A stretch of 64,000 nt of DNA from Salisaeta longa DSM 21114 (lineage in GTDB: Bacteria > Bacteroidota > Rhodothermia > Rhodothermales > Salinibacteraceae), in NCBI RefSeq assembly GCF_000419585.1, contig NZ_ATTH01000001.1:2891001-2955000 (forward strand), written 5' to 3'. Positions within the stretch are counted from its first letter, which is position 1; each line of letters starts with the position of its first letter. Shown here piece by piece: positions 1-12,025 of the stretch. Position numbers and translations under genes: made by a program. Under the pieces are notes generated by a model that saw only the letters and a program-made list of their open reading frames with translations, was not told where the DNA came from and did no database searches.

Positions 1-1678
1 CACCGGGGCCGACTTCGAGAACGTCCTTCAGATGATGGAGGATCGCCTCAAGGCCAACCCGATTCCGGTGCAGTACCCCATTGGCGCCGGCGACATGTTC
101 CGCGGCGTGATCGACCTGATCGAAAACAAGGCGATCATATGGGACGACGAGTCGCAGGGGATGGAATGGGAAGTGATGGACATCCCCGAAGATCTGAAAG
201 GCACCGCGCGCCACTGGCGCATCAACATGCTGGAGAGCGTGGCCGAGTATGACGACGAGCTCCTCATGAAGTACCTGGAGGGCGAAGAGATTGCGCCGGA
301 AGAGCTCCGCGCGGTCATCCGTGAGGCCACCCTGGCCCGCGACATTACACCGGTGTTTGCCGGTACGGCGCTCAAGAACAAGGGCGTACAGCGCCTCTTG
401 GATGGCGTCATCAACTACCTGCCGAGCCCGGACGATGTGCCGCCGGTTACGGGGCATCACCCGCGCGACGAGGAGGAGGAAATCGTACGCCGCCCCCAAG
501 AAGACGAACCGTTTAGCGGCGTTGCCTTCAAGATTGCTACCGACCCGTACGTCGGTAAAATCACCTTTGTGCGCGTCTACAGCGGCACGCTTGAAGCCGG
601 CTCGAAGGTGTACAACGCAAGCAGCGACGAGATGGAGCGCGTGGGCCGCTTGATGTTCATGCACTCCAACGACCGCGAAGACATCGACATGGTGCGTGCC
701 GGCGACATCGCCGCCGTGGTGGGGCCCAAGAACCTCAAGACGGGCGACACCGTCTGCGACCCCGATCACCCGGTGGTGCTGGAGTCGATGGACTTCCCCG
801 AGCCGGTCATCCGTATTGCCATTGAGCCGAAAACCAAGGCCGACCGCGATAAGCTGACCGGTGGGCTTGTGAAGCTGGCCGAAGAAGACCCGACGTTTAA
901 CGTCTCGACCGACGAAGAAACGGGTCAGACCATCATCGCGGGCATGGGCGAGCTCCACCTGGAGATTATTGTGGACCGCCTCAAGCGCGAGTTCAAGGTG
1001 GAGGCCAACATCGGGCGCCCGCAAGTGGCGTACCGCGAAGCGATTACCACCGCCTACGACGAGCACTACGTACTCAAGAAGCAAACCGGCGGTCGCGGAC
1101 AGTTCGCAGAGATCTACATGGAGGTCAGCCCGAACGATGAGGGCACGGGCCTCGAGTTTGAAGATGAAATCGTGGGTGGCTCGATTCCGAAAGAGTTTAT
1201 CCCTTCGGTGCGCAAAGGCATCGAGAGCTCGATGGATCAAGGACCGCTCGCCGGGTATCCCATCGAGGGCGTGAAGGTGCGCCTGTACGATGGCGACTAC
1301 CACGACGTCGACTCCGACCAGAACGCATTTGAGATTGCCGGGCGCATGGGCTTCCGCGAGGCCGCCCGCCGCGCCAAGCCGGTGCTCATGGAGCCAATTA
1401 TGGCCGTCGAGGTCATCACGCCGGACGAGTACATGGGCGACGTCATTGGCGACCTGAACAGCCGCCGCGGACGCATCGGCCAGATGGGGCAGCGCAACGA
1501 CGCGCAAGTCATCAACGCGATGGTGCCCCTCTCCGAAATGTTTGGGTACTCCACGGACCTGCGCTCCATCACGCAGGGGCGCGCCATCTACACCATGCAG
1601 TTTGAGACCTACGAAGCGGTGCCCGAGTCTCTCGCGAAAGAAATCATCGACGACGAGACCGTGGGTGCTGCTGCGTAG
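1..1678 (+). CDS. fusA: Elongation factor G, 3' part (5' end outside window)
   Basis: EF-G is the ribosomal translocase GTPase and also acts in ribosome recycling. The frame is open from the window edge, so the P-loop end of the G domain is missing; about 558 residues remain. Visible are the end of the G domain, domain II (VGKITFVRVYSG), domain III (AGMGELHLEI), domain IV (GGRGQFAEIYMEV) and the domain V end with GRAIYTMQFETYE. An acidic run of glutamates near residue 150 of the visible part fits a halophile. It lies 50 bp upstream of tuf, the usual str-operon order, so co-transcription with tuf is likely. The true start cannot be placed. Confidence 0.97.
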   Translation, partial: TGADFENVLQMMEDRLKANPIPVQYPIGAGDMFRGVIDLIENKAIIWDDESQGMEWEVMDIPEDLKGTARHWRINMLESVAEYDDELLMKYLEGEEIAPEELRAVIREATLARDITPVFAGTALKNKGVQRLLDGVINYLPSPDDVPPVTGHHPRDEEEEIVRRPQEDEPFSGVAFKIATDPYVGKITFVRVYSGTLEAGSKVYNASSDEMERVGRLMFMHSNDREDIDMVRAGDIAAVVGPKNLKTGDTVCDPDHPVVLESMDFPEPVIRIAIEPKTKADRDKLTGGLVKLAEEDPTFNVSTDEETGQTIIAGMGELHLEIIVDRLKREFKVEANIGRPQVAYREAITTAYDEHYVLKKQTGGRGQFAEIYMEVSPNDEGTGLEFEDEIVGGSIPKEFIPSVRKGIESSMDQGPLAGYPIEGVKVRLYDGDYHDVDSDQNAFEIAGRMGFREAARRAKPVLMEPIMAVEVITPDEYMGDVIGDLNSRRGRIGQMGQRNDAQVINAMVPLSEMFGYSTDLRSITQGRAIYTMQFETYEAVPESLAKEIIDDETVGAAA

Positions 1679-1728
1679 CGCGCACACCAACCCCTCTTTG
1701 ATTCATTCCAACGACACGATACTGAGCT

Positions 1729-2919
1729 ATGGCGAAGCAGGCATTTGAGCGGAAGAAGCCGCACATAAACATTGGCACGATCGGGCACGTCGACCACGGG
1801 AAGACGACGCTCACGGCGGCGATCACGAAGGTGTTAGCCGAGCAGGTGGGCGGCGCGGCCGAGCGCACGTTTGAGTCGATTGACAACGCGCCGGAGGAGC
1901 GCGAGCGCGGGATTACGATTGCGACCTCGCACGTGGAGTACGAGACGGAGGCGCGGCACTACGCGCATGTGGACTGCCCGGGGCACGCCGACTACGTGAA
2001 GAACATGGTGACGGGCGCGGCGCAGATGGACGGGGCGATCTTGGTGGTCGCCTCCACCGACGGCCCGATGCCGCAGACGCGCGAGCACATTTTGCTGGCG
2101 CGGCAGGTGGGGGTGCCCTACCTGGTGGTGTTTATGAACAAGACCGACCTGGTCGACGACGAGGAGCTGTTGGAGCTTGTGGAGATGGAGGTCCGCGAGC
2201 TGCTTGAGGAGTACGAGTACCCGGGCGACGAGGTGCCGGTGATCCGCGGCTCGGCCTTGCAAGCGCTGGAGAGCGACGCGGCGGCCGAAGAGAAGATCAT
2301 GGAGCTGATGGCGGCGGTCGACGAGTACATTCCGACGCCGGAGCGCGACGTGGACCAGCCGTTCTTGATGCCGATTGAGGACATCTTCTCGATTACAGGC
2401 CGCGGGACGGTAGTGACGGGCCGCATTGAGCGCGGGCGCATCCACACGGGCGACGAGATCGACATTGTGGGGATGCAAGAGGAGAAGCTCACCTCGACGG
2501 TGACGGGGATTGAGATGTTTAACAAGACGCTCGACGAAGGCGAGGCGGGCGACAACGCCGGCATTTTGCTGCGCGGGATCAAGAAGGAAGAGGTCGAGCG
2601 CGGCATGGTGCTGGCGGAGCCAGAGACGGTGACGCCGCACAAGCAGTTTGAGTGCGAGGTGTACGTGCTGTCGAAGGAAGAGGGCGGTCGTCACACGCCG
2701 TTTTTCAAGGGGTACCGCCCGCAGTTTTACTTCCGCACGACGGACGTGACGGGAGACATCAAGCTGCCGGAGGGGATGGAGATGGTGATGCCGGGGGACA
2801 ACGCGACGTTCACGGTGGAGCTGATTCAGCCGGTGGCGATGGAGGAGGGCCTGCGCTTTGCGATTCGCGAGGGCGGGCACACGGTCGGTGCGGGCGTGGT
2901 CAGCAAGATCCTCGACTAA
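1729..2919 (+). CDS. tuf: Elongation factor Tu
   Basis: EF-Tu carries aminoacyl-tRNA to the ribosomal A site. The 396-residue length is standard. The P-loop GHVDHGKT is at residues 19-26, followed by DCPGH and the guanine-specificity motif in the form NKTD; beta-barrel domains 2 and 3 are complete through the C-terminal GVVSKILD. The ATG is preceded by gagct with no Shine-Dalgarno sequence. The gene uses G-ending codons (gcg, acg, gtg, gag, ttg) more heavily by eye than the ribosomal genes around it, which may reflect high expression or gene conversion with a second tuf copy elsewhere. Confidence 0.98.
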
Positions 2920-2992
2920 CCCCACGGCCTCGACCGCGGAACGCCGGGGCACCGCGCGCCGGCGTTCAGCTTTTGAACATAGACCCGACGAT

Positions 2993-3304
2993 ATGGCAAC
3001 GCAGCAAAAAATACGTATTAAGCTGAAGTCGTACGATCACACGCTGATCGACAAGAGTGCGGAGAAGATCATCCGCACGGTGAAATCGACGGGCGCTGTG
3101 GTTAGCGGACCCATTCCGCTGCCCACGAAAAAGAAGGTGTACACGGTGCTTCGCGGCCCGCACGTAGACAAGAAGAGCCGCGAGCAGTTTGAGCGCCGCC
3201 ACCACAAGCGCCTCATCGATATTCTCTCGTCGAACAGCGAGACCGTCGATGCCCTCATGAAGCTTGAGCTTCCGAGCGGCGTGGACGTGGAAATTAAGGT
3301 GTAA
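2993..3304 (+). CDS. rpsJ: 30S ribosomal protein S10
   Basis: S10 (103 residues) binds the head of the 30S subunit and, in bacteria generally, also serves as NusE in antitermination. The typical core is present: [10 protein letters not shown], then [10 protein letters not shown], then [13 protein letters not shown] and a C-terminal [10 protein letters not shown] chose the ATG at 2993 because an upstream in-frame codon would add a tail absent from the family. It opens the S10 cluster 73 bp after tuf. Its stop is only 2 bp before a GTG-started lipoprotein gene, unlike the wide spacers elsewhere in this cluster. Confidence 0.97.
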
Positions 3305-3306
3305 GG

Positions 3307-3762
3307 GTGCCGCGCCTGCGCCACGTGGTTGGCCTGATGGTGGTGGTGCTCCTTGCGAGCGGCTGCGACCGTCAGCGCGCAACTACATCGGCCTACCGCC
3401 GCATCGTGGGCACGTGGCGCATCCAGACGATGCGCGTGGACGGGTTCGACTACACGAGTTTGCTTACCGAGCGCTACAACCGCTTGCGGCTACAACTCGC
3501 AACCGACCCGTCGCGCTTTCAATGGACCAGCGCCGGCGGCCTACAGCTTGCAGGCACCGTGCTGCTCCAAAATACACGCACGATGGTATGGAGCGGCGGA
3601 TTTAGTAAACCGGTGTACTGGCGGTACGAAAAGACAACATTTGGTGTCGTGCTAGAAACCGCCGGCGTAGCAGCCGGGGCCGACGCACTGACCGAGCGCC
3701 TCGCACCCTCGATAGGTGCCACCACGCGTTCGACCATTGTACTTCGCCTGGAGCGCCCGTAG
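3307..3762 (+). CDS. Small predicted lipoprotein inside the S10 operon
   Basis: A 151-residue protein with a GTG start, 2 bp after the rpsJ stop. Residues 1-20 form a lipoprotein signal: basic start, hydrophobic VVGLMVVVLL, lipobox ASGC with Cys20. The mature part has a YRRIVGTWRIQTMRVDG segment and alternating hydrophobic stretches, suggesting a small beta-rich, lipocalin-like fold; that fold is a guess. There is no transmembrane segment after the signal. No ribosomal function is evident, so its place between rpsJ and rplC is unexpected. The long open frame, the clean lipobox and the same strand as its neighbours argue for a real gene. Confidence 0.75.
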   Translation: MPRLRHVVGLMVVVLLASGCDRQRATTSAYRRIVGTWRIQTMRVDGFDYTSLLTERYNRLRLQLATDPSRFQWTSAGGLQLAGTVLLQNTRTMVWSGGFSKPVYWRYEKTTFGVVLETAGVAAGADALTERLAPSIGATTRSTIVLRLERP

Positions 3763-3807
3763 CATCGCGCCCAGGGTTACAAACAGACTTTAGACTGACT
3801 GACTGCT

Positions 3808-4437
3808 ATGAGTAGCGGACTGATTGGAAAGAAAGTGGGCATGACCAGCGTCTTTGAAGACGATGGACGCAATATTGCGTGCACCGTCATCGAGGCCGGT
3901 CCTAACATCGTCACGCAAGTGAAGCATGCCGATGGGGCCGATGGCTACGACGCGGTACAGTTGGCCTTCGACGATAAGAAAGAGAAGCGCACCACGAGCG
4001 CGCTGAAAGGGCACTTTGACAAGGCGGGCGCTGCGCCGAAGAAGCAAGTGGTGGAGTTCCGCAGCTTCGAGGGCGACGTAGACCTCGGCGACGTGCTGAA
4101 CGTGGACGACGTGTTCACCGAAGGCGAAACCATTGACGTGGTGGGCGTCAGCAAAGGAAAAGGCTTTCAGGGCGTAGTAAAGCGCCACGGCTTTGGCGGC
4201 GTAGGCATGGCCACCCACGGCCAGTCCGACCAGCAGCGCCACTCCGGTTCGATTGGCGCCTCGGCCGACCCGTCGCGCGTGTTTAAAGGAACGCGCATGG
4301 CCGGCCGCACCGGCGGCGACCGCACAAAAGTGAAGAACCTGCGCGTGGTGCGCGTGCTGCCCGACCATAACGCCATCCTCGTAAAGGGATCGGTGCCGGG
4401 CGCAAAGAACAGCTACGTTGAGCTTCACAAGAAATAA
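3808..4437 (+). CDS. rplC: 50S ribosomal protein L3
   Basis: L3 (209 residues) is an early assembly protein near the peptidyl transferase centre. The N-terminal [12 protein letters not shown] and the family signature region [19 protein letters not shown] are present, as is [18 protein letters not shown] near the C-terminus. The start ATG is preceded by ctgct without a Shine-Dalgarno sequence. It follows the inserted lipoprotein gene by 45 bp and precedes rplD by 77 bp. Asp/Glu content is raised between residues 85 and 115, in line with a halophilic proteome. Confidence 0.97.
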
Positions 4438-4514
4438 GGCTGCGGCCTCCAACCCGCACCCCGTGTGCCCCGTAGGCGAACGAGCATTTTAGACACCCCA
4501 AGAGCACTGGCATC

Positions 4515-5156
4515 ATGGAAGTTGAGATTCTTCAGGAAGACGGCATGAGCTCCGGCCGGACGGTCGCGCTCGACCCGACCGTGTTTGGCATTGAGCCGAA
4601 CGACCACGTTCTGTGGCTCGATGTGAAGCGGATCCAGGCGAACAAGCGCCAGGGTACGCACAAAACGCGTGAGCGCAGCGACGTGCGCGGCAGCCGCCGG
4701 AAGCTCTATCGCCAGAAAGGCACCGGAAACGCCCGGGCCGGCGATGCCAAATCGCCGATTCGTCGCACCGGAGGCCGCACCCACGGGGCCCGTCCGCGCG
4801 ACTACACCCAGAATCTCAACAAGAAGACGAAGCGCCTCGCCCGTCGCTCGGCCCTTTCGTACCGGGCAGCCAGCGGCAACGTGCGGGTCATCGAAAACTT
4901 CTCGATGGACGTGCCCAGCACGCGGCAGCTGAAAGACCTCCTGGCGCTGCTTGAGGTGGACGGCCAGAAGGTGCTGATCGTAACGGACGGTGTGGAGCAA
5001 GAGATCTACCGCTCCGCGCAAAACCTTCAGAAGGTGAACGTGCGCGAAGCACAGAGCCTCTCGACCGTCGATGTGCTCGATGCCGAAGTGCTCCTGATAC
5101 AAGAAGGCGCGCTCGATGTGATCACCGACGTGCTCTCTACCGCCCAGCCCGCATAA
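4515..5156 (+). CDS. rplD: 50S ribosomal protein L4
   Basis: L4 (213 residues) lines part of the exit tunnel. The basic extended loop RGSRRKLYRQKGTGNARAG around residues 53-72 is the tunnel hairpin. The globular remainder carries RRSALSYRA and a C-terminal Rossmann-like part ending in alternating acidic and hydrophobic residues. In Escherichia coli L4 represses its own operon through the S10 leader; that leader would lie upstream of rpsJ and I see no equivalent structure here. Confidence 0.96.
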   Translation: MEVEILQEDGMSSGRTVALDPTVFGIEPNDHVLWLDVKRIQANKRQGTHKTRERSDVRGSRRKLYRQKGTGNARAGDAKSPIRRTGGRTHGARPRDYTQNLNKKTKRLARRSALSYRAASGNVRVIENFSMDVPSTRQLKDLLALLEVDGQKVLIVTDGVEQEIYRSAQNLQKVNVREAQSLSTVDVLDAEVLLIQEGALDVITDVLSTAQPA

Positions 5157-5206
5157 CGCCCGCCTGCCCCGCGGCCTTTCGAGAATACCAGATTATTGCC
5201 TGAGTC

Positions 5207-5512
5207 ATGAGCAAACGAGTGCTGATTAAGCCGTACGTGACGGAGAAGACGACCCGGCAAATGGCCGAGGACAAATACACGTTTGTCGTACGCCTCGATG
5301 CCACGAAGCCCGCGATCAAACAGGCCGTAGAGCAGGCCTACAAAGACGAGGGCGTGCGCGTGACGAAGGTGCGCACTCAAATTGTGCCGGGCAAGCGGCG
5401 CCGTCAGTTCCGCGAAGGCAGCATGATTGAAGGCCGCACCTCGGGCTTCAAAAAAGCCATCGTGGAGCTCGACCCCGAAGGCGGAAGCATCGACTTCTTC
5501 GACGCGATATAA
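5207..5512 (+). CDS. rplW: 50S ribosomal protein L23
   Basis: L23 (101 residues) sits at the tunnel exit, where trigger factor and SRP dock. The characteristic opening LIKPYVTEKTTRQMAEDKYTF is followed by the tunnel-loop region KVRTQIVPGKRRRQFREG. The length matches bacterial L23. The ATG at 5207 is preceded by gagtc without a purine-rich ribosome site. It is flanked by rplD (50 bp upstream) and rplB (60 bp downstream), the standard order. Confidence 0.96.
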   Translation: MSKRVLIKPYVTEKTTRQMAEDKYTFVVRLDATKPAIKQAVEQAYKDEGVRVTKVRTQIVPGKRRRQFREGSMIEGRTSGFKKAIVELDPEGGSIDFFDAI

Positions 5513-5572
5513 CCGACGACCGCACGCTGTTGAACTTGCCGGGTACCGCCCGGCGCAACCTACTGTTTTGCT

Positions 5573-6418
5573 ATGGCCATTAAGAAGCTCAAACCCAACA
5601 CGAACGGGCAGCGGCACCGCTCGGGATCCGCATTCGACGACATCACAAAGACGGAGCCCGAAAAGAGCCTGCTGGAGCCGCTGAAGAAAAGCGGCGGCCG
5701 CAACAACCACGGCCGGATGACGATGCGCTACCGCGGCGGCGGCCACAAGCGCCGCTACCGCATCATCGACTTTAAGCGCAACCACAAAGACGGCATCCCG
5801 GCAACGGTTGCTAGCATTGAGTACGACCCGAACCGCACCGCGCGCATCGCGCTGCTGGTATACGCCGATGGCGAGAAGTCGTACATCATTGCACCCGACG
5901 GACTGGAGGTGGGCAGCACAGTGGAAAGCGGCCCAACGGCCTCGCCCGATGTGGGCAACTGCTTGCCGCTCGAAAACATCCCGGTGGGTACGTTTGTGCA
6001 CGCGGTTGAGATGAAGCCCGGAAAGGGCGCCCAGCTTGCACGCTCGGCGGGCACGCACGCCCAGCTGACGGCCCGCGAGGGGAAGTACGCAACGCTCGCG
6101 CTTCCCTCGGGCGAGACGCGCCTGGTACCGGCCAAGTGCCGCGCCACGGTGGGCACCACGAGCAACGTAGACCACATGAACATCGACCTGGGCAAGGCCG
6201 GCCGTAAGCGTTGGCTGGGCCGCCGCCCCCGCACGCGTGGCGTAGCCATGAACCCGGTCGACCACCCGATGGGCGGCGGTGAAGGCCGCGCCTCGGGCGG
6301 ACACCCGCGGTCGCGCAAGGGCGTGCCGGCAAAGGGCTACAAGACGCGCAAGCGCAACAAGGACTCAAACAAGTACATCATCCGGCGCCGTACCGAGAAG
6401 AAAAACCGCAAGCGATAA
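5573..6418 (+). CDS. rplB: 50S ribosomal protein L2
   Basis: L2 (281 residues) is needed for subunit association and peptidyl transferase function. Visible are the RNA-binding core ([22 protein letters not shown]), the SH3-like middle domain, and the C-terminal signature [13 protein letters not shown] containing the conserved histidine, then GGHPRSRKG. The tail is strongly basic ([11 protein letters not shown]). The length is close to the family norm. The start at 5573 is preceded by tttgct. Confidence 0.98.
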
Positions 6419-6473
6419 GTAACGCACGCGGCGCCTCCCGACGGACTCGCACGACTAAGACGCACGAACTGTT

Positions 6474-6761
6474 ATGCCTCGCTCGCTACGCAAAGGGCCT
6501 TACGTCTATTACAAGCTGCAACGTAAGGTCGACGCGCTGAACGAATCCAACGACAAGAAGGTCATCAAGACCTGGAGCCGGGATTCGCTCGTTACGCCCG
6601 CTTTTGTGGGCCACACCTTTGCCGTGCACAACGGCCGCCAGTTCATTCCGGTGTACGTCACCGAGAACATGGTAGGCCACAAACTGGGCGAGTTTGCGCC
6701 CACGCGCACCTTTAAGGGGCACGCGAAGTCGAAGGTCGACAAGCGCACGCGCCGTCCGTAA
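6474..6761 (+). CDS. rpsS: 30S ribosomal protein S19
   Basis: S19 (95 residues) forms the A-site-facing part of the 30S head with S13. The start [10 protein letters not shown] and the signature stretch [17 protein letters not shown] are both present. The basic tail [11 protein letters not shown] is typical. The ATG follows gaactgtt, the recurrent pyrimidine-T context of this cluster. It sits 55 bp after rplB and 51 bp before rplV. Confidence 0.97.
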
Positions 6762-6812
6762 CATCGGATGGGTCGCCTCGGGACGATTCACGCCTAAACC
6801 TAAGCTACCGCG

Positions 6813-7172
6813 ATGGAAGCACGAGCCGTACGCAAACACATTCGCTGTTCGCCCATGAAGATGCGCCGCGTCATTAACTTGGTGCGCGGGCGCAACGTGG
6901 CCGAGGCGATGGCCATCCTCAACTACATGCCGCAGCGGCCCACAAAATTTGTGAGCAAGACGCTGCGCTCCGCCGTGTTTAACCTGATGGACAAGCACGA
7001 CGAGCGGTTTGATGATGGCGAGCTGGTAATCAAAGAGATTCGGGCCGACGAAGGGCCGGTCTTTAAGCGCTATCAGCCCCGAGCGCGCGGGCGGGCAGCA
7101 CCGATTCGTAAGCGCACTACACACCTCACGGTAATCGTGGGCGTAGCTGCGCTCGAAGAAGCCGAGGCATAA
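6813..7172 (+). CDS. rplV: 50S ribosomal protein L22
   Basis: L22 (119 residues) contributes the narrow constriction of the exit tunnel. The N-terminal ARAVRKHIRCSPMKMRRV and the tip of the long beta hairpin, RYQPRARGRAAPIRKRTTH, identify it. A short acidic C-terminal extension (EEAEA) ends the protein. It lies between rpsS and rpsC as in other bacteria, with an 88 bp spacer before rpsC. Confidence 0.96.
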   Translation: MEARAVRKHIRCSPMKMRRVINLVRGRNVAEAMAILNYMPQRPTKFVSKTLRSAVFNLMDKHDERFDDGELVIKEIRADEGPVFKRYQPRARGRAAPIRKRTTHLTVIVGVAALEEAEA

Positions 7173-7260
7173 ACCGTTCATTGCACTTGCGCCTTCGTCT
7201 GCGGCACACAGGCGACGAAGGGCCACAGACTAAGGACAAGACAAGGAACCACACCTACCT

Positions 7261-7977
7261 ATGGGCCAAAAAATACACCCTGTCGGGCTTCGTTTGGGGA
7301 TCATCCGCGGTTGGGATTCCAACTGGTACTCGGAAGAAAACCTGCAAGAGAAGCTCGTTGAAGACAACACGATTCGCGAGTACCTGGAAGCGCGCCTGCG
7401 CCGTGCCGGCCTGAGCCGGACGGTCATTGAGCGCACGCCCAAGCGCGTGATCCTCACGCTGCACACCAGCCGTCCGGGCGTGGTCATTGGCCGCGGCGGA
7501 TCGGAGGTCGAAAAGCTGCGCGAAGAGCTCAAGACGCTCACGGGCAAAGACATCCAGGTCAACATCAGCGAGATTAAGCGCCCCGAGCTGGATGCCGCGC
7601 TGGTGGCCAAAAACATTGCGCAGCAGCTGGAGGGTCGCATTTCCTTCCGCCGTGCCATGAAGCAGGCCATGACCGCCGCGATGCGCATGGGCGCCGAGGG
7701 CTGCCGCATCCGCGCCGCCGGTCGCCTGGGCGGGGCCGAGATGGGACGCATCGAGGAGTACCTGGAAGGCCGTGTGCCGCTGCACACCCTGCGCGCCGAC
7801 ATCGACTTTGCCAAAGCAACAGCGTTTACCATCTACGGCACCATTGGCATTAAGGTGTGGATTCACCGCGGCGAGATCCTTGGCACGCCCGACCTAAGCC
7901 CCAACGTGCAAGCGCAGCAGCGCAAGCGTCCGAAGGGCGGGCGCTCCGGCGGCCGTGGCCGACGGAGCCGCCGCTAA
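7261..7977 (+). CDS. rpsC: 30S ribosomal protein S3
   Basis: S3 (238 residues) forms part of the mRNA entry channel. The opening GQKIHPVGLRLGIIRGWDS is diagnostic. A KH domain with the GxxG loop in the form GRGG lies around residues 78-82, and the C-terminal S3 domain includes GAEGCRIRAAGRLGGAEM. The tail is rich in Arg/Gly (GGRSGGRGRRSRR), an extension likely to touch rRNA. The start ATG follows cacctacct. Confidence 0.97.
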   Translation: MGQKIHPVGLRLGIIRGWDSNWYSEENLQEKLVEDNTIREYLEARLRRAGLSRTVIERTPKRVILTLHTSRPGVVIGRGGSEVEKLREELKTLTGKDIQVNISEIKRPELDAALVAKNIAQQLEGRISFRRAMKQAMTAAMRMGAEGCRIRAAGRLGGAEMGRIEEYLEGRVPLHTLRADIDFAKATAFTIYGTIGIKVWIHRGEILGTPDLSPNVQAQQRKRPKGGRSGGRGRRSRR

Positions 7978-8040
7978 CCGCACGCCCCAACCTGTTCGTC
8001 ACCCGGCAGCCCGTGCTGCCCTCGTTGAAACTACCACGCT

Positions 8041-8466
8041 ATGCTACAACCCAAACGCACAAAGCACCGCAAGGCCCAGCGCAACCAGGGCATCAAGAAA
8101 GGCAACGCCACGCGCGGCACGCGCATCAACTTTGGCGACTTTGCCCTGAAGGCCCTGGAGCATGGCCAGATCACCAGCCGCCAGATTGAGGCGGCGCGTG
8201 TGGCCATCAACCGCCACATGAAGCGGGCCGGCAAGGTGTGGATCCGGATCTACCCGGACAAGCCCGTAACCAAGACGCCTGCCGAAACCCGCATGGGGAA
8301 AGGAAAAGGGGCGCCGGAGTTCTACGTGGCCGAAATTCAGCCGGGGCGCGTGCTCTTTGAAGTGGGCGGCGGCGTCTCGCGCGAGGTTGCGCAAGAAGCG
8401 CTGCGCCTCGGGCGCCACAAGCTGCCCATCCGCACGAAGTTTGTTGCGCGCCCGGTGCTCGGGTAA
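8041..8466 (+). CDS. rplP: 50S ribosomal protein L16
   Basis: L16 (141 residues) helps position A-site tRNA. Both family signatures are visible: the region around [16 protein letters not shown] and [16 protein letters not shown]. The N-terminus [13 protein letters not shown] is standard. The start at 8041 is preceded by ccacgct. It lies 63 bp after rpsC and 43 bp before rpmC, the universal rpsC-rplP-rpmC order. Confidence 0.97.
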
Positions 8467-8509
8467 CCGCGCACTGGCTTCCCGTTGACCAAGAGACCCT
8501 GTTGCCGTT

Positions 8510-8710
8510 ATGACGCCCCAAGAAATTCGCAACTTAAGCGCTGAAGAGATTGAGCAGCGCATTGACGAAGAGCAAGAACAGCTCGACGAGCTTCGCTTTC
8601 AGCACGCCATTCAGGGCCAGCTGGAAAACCCGATGCTCCTTCGCAAGAAGCGCCGTACGATTGCGCGACTGAAGACGATTTTGAACGAGAAAGCACGCGC
8701 GGTATCCTGA
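8510..8710 (+). CDS. rpmC: 50S ribosomal protein L29
   Basis: L29 (66 residues) is a small two-helix protein beside L23 at the tunnel exit. The sequence runs MTPQEIRNLSAEEIEQRI, then EQLDELRFQHAIQGQLENP, then RTIARLKTILNEKA, matching the family. The N-terminal helix is very acidic for L29, in line with other acid-shifted proteins here. The ATG is preceded by gccgtt. Confidence 0.95.
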   Translation: MTPQEIRNLSAEEIEQRIDEEQEQLDELRFQHAIQGQLENPMLLRKKRRTIARLKTILNEKARAVS

Positions 8711-8760
8711 GCGACGCCGCATAGCGCCGCGCCTCACAAGACACTTGAGATCGATTGGTT

Positions 8761-9048
8761 ATGGAAGACACGCCTACAGCAGAGCGCAACACCACCGAGC
8801 GCAACGCGCGCAAAGAACGCGTGGGCATTGTGGTGAGCGACAAGATGGAAAAGACCATCACCGTTGCGGTACGTCGGCAGATGAAGCACCCGATGTACGG
8901 CAAGTACCTGGAGCGCTCCTCCAAGATGCTCGTGCACGACGAAGAGAACGAAGCGAGCGAGGGCGACACGGTGCGCATCATGGAGACGCGCCCCTTGAGC
9001 AAGCGCAAGCGCTGGCGGCTGGTTGAAATTGTAGAATACGCCAAGTAA
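8761..9048 (+). CDS. rpsQ: 30S ribosomal protein S17
   Basis: S17 (95 residues from this ATG) is a primary 16S rRNA-binding protein with an OB fold. The core [20 protein letters not shown], then [21 protein letters not shown] and [18 protein letters not shown] are typical. An upstream in-frame TTG at 8755 exists, but the ATG has the same gattggtt context as its neighbours and is preferred. An acidic and threonine-rich N-terminal extension of about 15 residues ([14 protein letters not shown]) is longer than in E. coli S17. Confidence 0.95.
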
Positions 9049-9142
9049 CCCCGTCGACAGGCTGCGCGAGCGGCCCCTGGCCCCGCCGCCTGCGCGTTTC
9101 CGACGCTCGACACTCTCCACCTGTTAGAGGACTTTTGAAGCA

Positions 9143-9511
9143 ATGGTTCAGCAAGAAAGCAAATTGAAGGTCGCCGACAATAGCGGGGCCAAGGAAGTTC
9201 AGTGCATCCGCGTGCTGGGCAGCAGCGGGCGCCGCTATGCCCGACTGGGCGACCGCATCATGGTGTCCGTGAAGTCGGCCATTCCCGGCGGTACCGTGGG
9301 CAAGGGCGACGTGAGCCCGGCCGTTGTGGTGCGCACGCGCAAGGAAGTGCGCCGGCCGGACGGGTCGTACATCCGCTTCGACGAGAACGCGGCCGTGCTC
9401 ATCGACAACCAGAACGAACCGGTGGGCACCCGTGTGTTTGGCCCGGTGGCGCGCGAGCTGCGTGAGAAGCAATTCATGCGCATCGTATCGCTCGCCCCCG
9501 AGGTGCTGTAA
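9143..9511 (+). CDS. rplN: 50S ribosomal protein L14
   Basis: L14 (122 residues) forms intersubunit bridges with h14 of 16S rRNA. It begins [19 protein letters not shown] and contains the signature [19 protein letters not shown]. The length equals the bacterial standard. This is one of the few genes here with a plausible Shine-Dalgarno sequence: agagga about 11 bases before the ATG. The 94 bp spacer from rpsQ is the widest between S10/spc genes in the window. Confidence 0.97.
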
Positions 9512-9589
9512 GCGCACGGCCTATGTGCCGCCCCGGGCTGTACCGCAGCCCGCCTCCACGACATTGTATCGATAGTTGCCATCTGACCG

Positions 9590-9976
9590 ATGCCACGAAC
9601 AACGAACAAGCGCAAAAAGCTTCACATAAAGAAGGGCGACCGCGTGATGCTCAACAAAACGATCACCTCGGCCCCCTCTGCGGGCGAGGATCGTGAGAAG
9701 GGCTACATTGGAAAAGTCCTCCGGGTCTTTCCTGAACGCGAGCGCATCATTGTGGAAGGCGTAAACATGCGCGTCTTCCACGAGAAGCCACGGATGGGCC
9801 AGCCCGAGGGCGGCCGCATCGAGCGCGAAGCCCCCATTCACGCCTCCAACGTGAACCCGGTGGACAGCAACGATAACCCGACGCGCATTGGGCGGAAGAA
9901 GATTGAAGATCCGGAAAGCGGTGCAAGCCGCTGGGTGCGGTACGCGAAAACGACCGGCGAAGAACTCGACAACTAA
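9590..9976 (+). CDS. rplX: 50S ribosomal protein L24
   Basis: L24 (128 residues) initiates 50S assembly at the 5' end of 23S rRNA. The N-terminal KLHIKKGDRVMLNKTITS carries the KOW-type beta strand, followed by GYIGKVLRVFPERERIIVEGVN. The C-terminal half has EAPIHASNVNPVD and a zinc-less tail. It is longer than E. coli L24, with an internal insertion around residues 20-35 (TITSAPSAGEDREKG). Confidence 0.95.
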   Translation: MPRTTNKRKKLHIKKGDRVMLNKTITSAPSAGEDREKGYIGKVLRVFPERERIIVEGVNMRVFHEKPRMGQPEGGRIEREAPIHASNVNPVDSNDNPTRIGRKKIEDPESGASRWVRYAKTTGEELDN

Positions 9977-10039
9977 GCGCCTCTGCGCGCCCGCCGCCGC
10001 CGTGCGGCGCATCATCACCTGTAGAACTGCAAACGTGTC

Positions 10040-10606
10040 ATGGCCACTACTCCGCGACTGAAAGAGCGCTATAACGACGAGGTTCGTCCCGACCTGAAAG
10101 ACCAGTTCGGACACAGCAATGTGATGGAGGTGCCCCGCCTCGAAAAAATCTGCATCAACAAGGGCGTGGGCGAAGCCGCCGAGAACCAGAAGGTGCTTGA
10201 CGATGCCATCGACGAGCTGCGCCGCATCACCGGTCAGCATCCGACGGTGCGCCGCTCGAAGAAGAGCATCTCGAACTTTGGGTTGCGGAAAGGCATGCCG
10301 GTGGGCGTGTCCGTCATACTGCGCGACGCGCGCATGTACGAGTTTATGGATCGCCTCACCACGCTTGCGCTCCCCAACATTCGCGACTTCCGCGGCGTGC
10401 CCGACCGTAGCTTTGACGGCCACGGCAACTACACGCTGGGCATCGCAGAGCAAACCATCTTTCCAGAAATTGATGTGGACAAGGTCGACCGCATCAGCGG
10501 CATGGACATCACATTTGTGACGAGCGCCGACACCGACGAGGAAGCCTATGCACTGCTGAAAGGCCTGGGCATGCCCTTCGTACGGCGCGAAGAACAAGCC
10601 GCGTAA
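10040..10606 (+). CDS. rplE: 50S ribosomal protein L5
   Basis: L5 (188 residues) binds 5S rRNA and contacts P-site tRNA. Motifs are [34 protein letters not shown], and the downstream region [20 protein letters not shown], all typical. The C-terminus is acidic before a final RREEQAA. The start ATG at 10040 follows acgtgtc. It lies between rplX and rpsN, the standard spc order. Confidence 0.97.
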
Positions 10607-10649
10607 GGCCTGTCCTCCACTGTAGACGAGAATACCGACCCCGACTGTC

Positions 10650-10919
10650 ATGGCTAAAAAGAGCTGGATTGCACGCGAAGAGAAACGCCGCGAGCTGCAC
10701 GAAAAGTACAAAGAGAAGCGCCGTCGGCTGAAAGAAGAGGGCCGCTGGGTGGAGCTGCAAAAGCTCCCGCGCGACTCGAGTCCGGTGCGCCAAAACAACC
10801 GCTGCCCCATCTGCGGGCGCGACAACGGTTTCATCCGTGAGTTTGGCGTGTGCCGCATCTGTTTCCGCGAGATGGCCCTCGAAGGGCGCATCCCCGGCGT
10901 GCGGAAGTCAAGCTGGTAA
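10650..10919 (+). CDS. rpsN: 30S ribosomal protein S14, long form with intact zinc cysteines
   Basis: S14 binds the 30S head near S3 and S10. The protein has 89 residues, the length usual for the zinc-free class, yet it retains two CxxC pairs (RCPICG and VCRICF) separated by [11 protein letters not shown], the ligand set of the short zinc class. The C-terminus [11 protein letters not shown] is conserved. The mixture of long helical N-terminus and intact zinc ribbon is seen directly; zinc binding itself is inferred. Confidence 0.95.
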
Positions 10920-10986
10920 GCACCGCGCGGCCCGCGACAGCCCGCGCACACATGCACCATCAGATTTTACAGAACCGAAGACCGTA

Positions 10987-11388
10987 ATGAGTGGAATCTC
11001 CGACCCGGTGGCCGATTACTTGGCACGCATCAAGAACGGGCAACAGGCCAACCATCAGTACATTGACATCCCGGCCTCGCGCCTGAAGCGCGCGATCACC
11101 CAGATTCTGCTGGAAAAGGGATACATCAAAAACTACCTGAACATCGACGACGGGAAGCAGGGGCTGTTGCGCCTGTACCTGAAGTACGATGAGGCCGGCT
11201 TGCCCGCCATCAAGACGCTCGACCGCGTGTCGCGCCCCGGATTGCGCGAGTACGCCAAGGCACAAGAGGTTCCGCGCGTGAAGAACGGGCTGGGCATTGC
11301 CATTTTGTCCACGTCGCGCGGCGTTATGAGCGACAAAGAAGCGCGCCGCTTTAACGTAGGAGGCGAGGTGCTTGCCAAAGTATTTTAA
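10987..11388 (+). CDS. rpsH: 30S ribosomal protein S8
   Basis: S8 (133 residues) binds helix 21 of 16S rRNA and is the spc-operon translational repressor in E. coli. It opens SGISDPVADYLARIKNGQ and ends with the signature GLGIAILSTSRGVMSDKEAR. The ATG at 10987 was preferred over upstream in-frame codons because it gives the normal N-terminus. I did not find an obvious S8-like hairpin in the 43 bp rplE-rpsN or 67 bp rpsN-rpsH spacers, so local autoregulation cannot be claimed. Confidence 0.97.
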   Translation: MSGISDPVADYLARIKNGQQANHQYIDIPASRLKRAITQILLEKGYIKNYLNIDDGKQGLLRLYLKYDEAGLPAIKTLDRVSRPGLREYAKAQEVPRVKNGLGIAILSTSRGVMSDKEARRFNVGGEVLAKVF

Positions 11389-11440
11389 CGCCCCTGCCGG
11401 TTTCACGCAATTCCGCTGACTTCAACGAGGTGACAGACGC

Positions 11441-12025
11441 ATGGCTCGCATAGGCAGCAAGCCGATTCAACTTAATGACAAGGTGACCGTGTCGGTCGAC
11501 AAGGCCAACCGCGTAACCGTACAAGGACCGAAGGGTGAACTGATCGAGCAAATCGATCCGGACATGACCGTGTCGGTCGAGGACGACGCCGTTGTGGTAG
11601 ATCGGCCCACAAACCAGAAGCGCCACCGGGCCTTGCACGGCCTCTCGCGCTCCCTGATCGACAACATGGTCGAAGGCGTAACCAATGGATACAAGAAGCG
11701 CCTCGTGCTAATTGGCGTGGGTTACCGCGCCGAAGTGGACAACGACGGCGTCCTGGAGCTCGCCCTTGGCTACTCGCACCCCATCTTTTTCATGCCGCCC
11801 GAGGAGGTGAGCATCTCCATTGGCGATGCCAAAAGTGTGAGCGTGAGCGGTGCGAAAGACAACGTAACCACCGTTGTAGAGGTGGAGGGCATCGACAAGC
11901 AGTTGGTAGGCCAGGTGGCCGCCAAAATTCGAAGCCTCCGCCCGCCCGAAGTGTACAAAGGCAAGGGCGTGCGCTACGATGGCGAGCACGTATCGCTGAA
12001 AGCCGGTAAGACGGCCGCTCGCTAG
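11441..12025 (+). CDS. rplF: 50S ribosomal protein L6
   Basis: L6 (194 residues) contacts the sarcin-ricin loop region. Two repeated alpha/beta domains are visible. The first runs MARIGSKPIQLNDKVTV to LHGLSRSLIDNMVEGV; the second contains VEGIDKQLVGQVAAKIRSLRPP and the C-terminal KGKGVRYDGEHV signature. A gaggtg sequence eight bases before the ATG is a plausible ribosome-binding site, uncommon in this cluster. The length is modestly longer than E. coli L6. Confidence 0.97.
   Translation: MARIGSKPIQLNDKVTVSVDKANRVTVQGPKGELIEQIDPDMTVSVEDDAVVVDRPTNQKRHRALHGLSRSLIDNMVEGVTNGYKKRLVLIGVGYRAEVDNDGVLELALGYSHPIFFMPPEEVSISIGDAKSVSVSGAKDNVTTVVEVEGIDKQLVGQVAAKIRSLRPPEVYKGKGVRYDGEHVSLKAGKTAAR

Follow-up and report, generated by a model that had tools for sequence, protein, structure and literature searches.

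The gene at 3307..3762 on the + strand, which lies between the ribosomal-protein (r-protein) genes rpsJ and rplC, would encode an accessory, outer-membrane, lipocalin-like lipoprotein and form an ancient, vertically inherited cistron of the str/S10 ribosomal-protein transcript, a reading to which we give a probability of ~0.6. Function is the textbook reason for the stable gene order of the S10 cluster, and a lipoprotein gene that stayed within it while an entire order and its sister family diversified, with distances that follow those of the r-proteins, is either a natural coupling of envelope and ribosome output or a demonstration of a long passenger ride in an essential operon.

The rpsJ-rplC junction in the window and in its relatives

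Within the window, the whole stretch of 64,000 nucleotides that was analyzed, the gene order runs from fusA (cut) through tuf, rpsJ, the lipoprotein ORF, rplC and rplD to the remaining S10, spc, and alpha genes. On the + strand, tuf (EF-Tu, 1729..2919) was placed by its translation and by comparison with relatives, rpsJ (S10, 2993..3304, with its TAA stop at 3302-3304) by sequence comparison, rplC (L3, 3808..4437) by translation and homology search, and rplD (L4, 4515..5156) by translation. The junction gene, delimited as an ORF and by its homologues at the same junction, begins with a GTG 2 bp past the rpsJ stop, spans 151 codons, and ends with a stop at 3760-3762, 45 bp before the rplC start. 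The sequence-only reading had thus described the gene accurately. That reading had also put the gaps between r-protein genes at 32 bp or more, which holds for the 18 adjacent r-protein or elongation-factor (EF) gene pairs placed in the window (43-130 bp). The window's own genome holds the lipoprotein gene in single copy.

A first search of 60 relatives had returned weakly similar stretches, the three best beyond the window's own genome being 30-36% identical; many of these stretches lay at the rpsJ-rplC junction as well. RplC was then located in 102 of the 114 genomes of the window's order (12 were without), giving 103 copies, since one genome (G001) holds two; rpsJ and rplC were both readable in 100 junctions. 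A co-oriented lipobox ORF of ~150-230 codons lies between them in 61 of these 100, namely the 58 members that were aligned and three more (L207, L208, and L210). The other 39 junctions have no lipoprotein; 38 of them have gaps of 5-108 nt and one (L046) a gap of 260 nt. Three copies were incompletely readable (G075, G006, and G031, the last two cut), and in G075 the lipoprotein adjoins rplC, with rpsJ off the contig.

The gene is present in families f1, f2, f4, f5, f7, f9, f10, f12, and f14 and in part of f13, and absent from f3, f8, f11, f15, one f1 genus, G005, and parts of f5 and f13. Some genera contain both states: it is present in G102 and absent from G103, and present in G030 and absent from G087-G089. 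Such clean within-genus losses provide natural with/without pairs and make the question of position testable.

Two of these loci are unusual. Of the two rplC loci of G001 (L036 and L037), one has the lipoprotein and the other lacks it, and this genome may be a mixed bin. The 260-nt gap without a lipoprotein ORF (L046:1535-1794, genome G036) may be what is left of a decayed gene, although none of its three + strand frames was among the best 20 and the best 12 matches of the profile searches, the lower of which were all shuffled sequences.

In members of the class outside the order, 20 junctions were read. All 18 that do not belong to family f16 have rpsJ close to rplC, without the lipoprotein, and both f16 junctions hold a lipoprotein ORF of 145-150 aa. 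The f16 proteins matched the profile of the 58 members with E values of 9e-8 and 7e-6, which none of 200 shuffled sequences equalled; a weaker match persisted after removal of the signal peptide. Inspection of the same junction in relatives, which the sequence-only reading had proposed, has thus turned up the ORF both within the order and in f16. In a phylum-wide sample of 296 genomes, 67 matched the profile at E ≤ 0.001, the best match outside the order having an E value of 1e-13. No neighbouring r-protein genes were found at the eight outside-order matches that were fetched (L191-L198), and these are therefore taken as general lipocalin-like relatives.

Descent, losses, and selection

Seven r-proteins of 81 genomes were used to build a tree by a quick method. 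Each family with at least two rows fell on one side of a branch, and f16 came out as the sister group of the order (full SH-aLRT support). Mapped on this tree, the presence and absence of the lipoprotein in 80 labelled rows needs at least nine changes, a count that alone cannot separate gain from loss. The pattern is best read as one ancient gain before the radiation of the order followed by about eight losses, a single early gain being favoured because the gene is present in f16, f4, and f10, which are early branches.

Lipoprotein distances correlate with r-protein distances across 46 genomes (Mantel test, Spearman 0.669); none of 2000 permutations reached this value, the maximum being 0.263, and the two sets of distances share the nearest neighbour in 29 of the 46 genomes. 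Such congruence is what would be expected under vertical descent. The median identity is 23% for the lipoproteins versus 68% for the r-proteins, and in the alignment, the window protein is 13-32% identical to the 57 other members. All 15 close pairs have a dN/dS of 0.03-0.43, and the lipoprotein thus evolves fast yet under purifying selection.

As homologues occupy the same place in many genomes and dN/dS is below 0.5 in 15 of 15 pairs, ORF 3307-3762 is a real gene. The sequence-only reading had also considered an accidental insertion or a spurious frame. The low identity of the window protein to its 57 relatives and the lack of a database family for it would fit a spurious frame or a recent neutral insertion, to which we nonetheless give next to no credence: both are refuted by the homologues at the same place through the order and its sister family f16, by the purifying selection, and by the congruent distances. 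We hold with high confidence that the gene is an ancient, conserved lipoprotein cistron. Since it has been lost several times, the lipoprotein is not essential.

A fast-evolving, putatively lipocalin-like lipoprotein

The window protein begins with a 19-residue signal peptide (3307..3363, from sequence reading and the alignment) and carries the lipobox ASGC at residues 17-20. The lipobox cysteine, Cys20 (3364..3366), and the Gly35 and Trp37 of a G-x-W (3409..3417) are the positions found invariant in all 58 aligned members. The invariant cysteine supports the earlier prediction of a lipoprotein. We take this G-x-W to be a lipocalin-type motif.

The window protein itself has no match in Pfam (E ≤ 10) or in NCBIfam. 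Searching Pfam with the 58 members at E ≤ 0.1 gave matches to Lipocalin_4 for 20 (best E value 7.2e-6), DUF5004 for 8, Lipocalin_8 for 3, and NlpE for 2, along with some single matches to unrelated families. Against the curated Lipocalin_4 cut-off of 22.4 bits, the junction members L086 (17.2 bits) and L037 (14.3 bits) both fall below, and a paralogue away from the junction (L201, genome G032) passes with 23.6 bits. By these matches the window protein is classed as lipocalin-like and is not assigned as a member of Lipocalin_4 (PF13648).

Fold prediction, which the sequence-only reading had put forward as a check, yielded a hint. The single-sequence AlphaFold2 model of the window protein was poor (mean pLDDT 53.6), and the nearest Foldseek hits to it were calycins without significance (best E value 0.12), which included lipocalin 15 and proteins that bind retinoic acid or fatty acids. 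A profile search of the PDB gave no match (best E value 0.26). All in all, a lipocalin-like fold, that is, a calycin beta-barrel, seems likely.

The junction proteins share with Lipocalin_4, DUF5004 (PF16395), and Lipocalin_8 (PF16585) a small lipoprotein domain with a G-x-W near its start and a later G-T-Y. However, the window protein and most junction members fall short of these models, and the junction members form a fast-evolving group of their own that is tied to one genomic place. NlpE is an envelope stress sensor. Two of the 58 members match the N-terminal domain of this outer-membrane lipoprotein (PF04170, best E value 7.3e-4), whereas the other 56 do not.

Beyond the lipobox cysteine, the residue at +2 is Asp in 55 of the 58 members and that at +3 is Ser in 39, and in 38 the stretch +2 to +11 is net acidic by at least 3. 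The C-D-S followed by acidic residues seen in many members resembles the lipoprotein export signal (LES) of Bacteroidota surface lipoproteins, such as SDDDD and SDDFE, as given in the passages cited (PMC5080379). The window protein, which reads C-D-R-Q-R-A-T-T-S from the lipobox cysteine onward and has a net charge of -1 over +2 to +11, lacks such an acidic, export-signal-like stretch and, like seven others of its family, is not net acidic at its N terminus; many relatives outside its family would be compatible by sequence with an LES as those passages describe it (PMC5080379).

Family matches with E values below 1e-16 away from the junction were found only in G057, G085, and G031, to which paralogues in G032, G023, and G041 are to be added. 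Loss from the junction is nearly always loss from the genome, the exceptions being G057 and G085. In G057, which has no junction copy, the gene (L199:2544-3020, - strand) directly abuts a TonB-dependent receptor gene (198-2543, - strand), and a strong copy off the junction is likewise found in G085, which belongs to the genus of G057. In G031, whose junction is cut, a strong member (L204:2254-2733, - strand) lies directly upstream of yajC (1811-2239, - strand). G032 has an extra copy after a FecR gene (L201:1013-2480, + strand), preceded, by reading, by a sigma-factor-like ORF. The strong copies in G057, G031, and G032 hint at function. Six f14 genomes (G111, G112, G039, G113, G049, and G058) have, besides the junction copy, extra matching frames of ~290-480 codons elsewhere in the genome.

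Packing and expression at a soft junction

The lipoprotein start overlaps rpsJ in 14 of the 58 members, with starts chosen by rule; the end lies within 2 nt of rplC or overlaps it in 7, and in many members fewer than 60 nt separate the two genes. Within 2800-4700 of the window there is no + strand terminator-like site, and within 1-12000 no Rfam match, the rplC-side gap (3763..3807, 45 bp, + strand) included. The promoter pattern TAnnTTTG is of the Bacteroidota type. It is not enriched in the 58 junctions (5 observed versus 4.6 expected), nor is a fuller pattern (1 versus 1.7). Seen as a cistron of the str/S10 operon, the gene is co-oriented with its neighbours, stands 2 and 45 bp from them with no terminator between, and keeps a conserved order. 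Given the tight packing, the absence of any terminator-like site on the + strand, and the unenriched promoter pattern, it is highly probable that the lipoprotein is co-transcribed with the r-protein genes. The earlier suggestion that it is co-expressed with ribosomes gains indirect support from the packing and from the missing terminator-like site, both read from sequence.

The codon adaptation of the lipoprotein ORF (0.561) is below that of all 24 r-protein and EF ORFs scored (0.579-0.782), which are favoured by construction, as the reference set consists of the same genes. This codon usage argues against very high translation of the lipoprotein; together with the repeated losses, it marks the gene as accessory.

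The sequence-only reading had called the rpsJ-rplC junction one of the most conserved in bacteria, which overstates the case for this phylum. A set of 80 named Bacteroidota loci from outside the order (L111-L190) served as an outgroup; they are the best RplC matches and not a random draw, and a few of them have little upstream DNA. In 60 of them rpsJ precedes rplC at a distance of 13-518 nt, several of these gaps being long; in the other 20, rpsJ was not found in the DNA fetched upstream of rplC. Within the phylum, the junction is thus a soft spot and the S10 operon has an unsettled head. Two of the loci with long gaps were read (L165 and L133), and neither gap holds an ORF of at least 80 aa. 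These long gaps, two of them read as free of ORFs, and the soft operon boundary could speak for a regulatory spacer: the stretch would split a str-rpsJ unit from one led by rplC and carry the promoter or leader of the latter, the protein being secondary. We consider this improbable, as the promoter pattern is unenriched in the 58 junctions, Rfam gives no match, the protein is under purifying selection, and the room left ahead of rplC is in many members less than 60 nt.

Position of the gene and comparison with known insertions

The gene occupies the rpsJ-rplC junction in most families of the order and also in the sister family f16. In the explanation that we propose, it is a cistron of the str/S10 transcript that would be transcribed along with the r-protein genes, with translation in some cases coupled to that of rpsJ. 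Its product would be lipidated and would probably form a lipocalin-like (calycin) beta-barrel anchored to the outer membrane; in the many members whose N termini are acidic, it may be exposed on the cell surface. This barrel may act as a ligand-binding or envelope-housekeeping accessory. The junction location would make the lipoprotein dose follow ribosome production, and growth-rate coupling of lipoprotein output is plausible. A selected link to growth rate can be put forward tentatively, and we doubt that the position itself has been selected as a way to keep the amount of lipoprotein, made from the ribosomal transcript, in step with ribosome synthesis. Had it been selected, the lipoprotein could serve, for example, as an envelope component matched to growth or as a sentinel that monitors the traffic of lipoproteins, and envelope and ribosome output would be physically coupled through one mRNA.

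A competing account, which we rate at somewhat less than an even chance, holds that the gene is a long hitchhiker, which entered once in an ancestor and was kept as r-protein operons rarely rearrange; the protein would be functional and its position would not. The repeated, clean losses fit this account, as do the codon usage, which is not r-protein-like, and the close relatives elsewhere (by the TonB-dependent receptor gene in G057, at the FecR locus in G032, and by yajC in G031). Insertions known from the str-S10 boundary of other bacteria, for instance that of bfd-bfr in Gammaproteobacteria, point the same way, as they come without a stated link to ribosome function in the passages cited (PMC8046335). 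However, nearly every strong family member is at the junction, and losing the junction copy has, save in G057 and G085, almost always meant losing the gene altogether.

For the vertically inherited lipoprotein cistron that we prefer, a search of open-licence PMC papers did not turn up any that places a lipoprotein gene between rpsJ and rplC. As far as these searches show, the kind of insertion is already known, and a lipoprotein cistron kept at rpsJ-rplC over such depth is apparently undescribed. Insertions at the str-S10 boundary, bfd-bfr among them, are described in Gammaproteobacteria and Bacilli (PMC8046335). In the passages cited, these resemble the present case in consisting of a non-ribosomal gene, in going back to one ancestral insertion, and in being inherited vertically (PMC8046335). 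They differ in that their gene order often breaks up later (PMC8046335), whereas here the order of rpsJ and rplC is kept and one lipoprotein cistron lies between the two, often packed against a neighbour.
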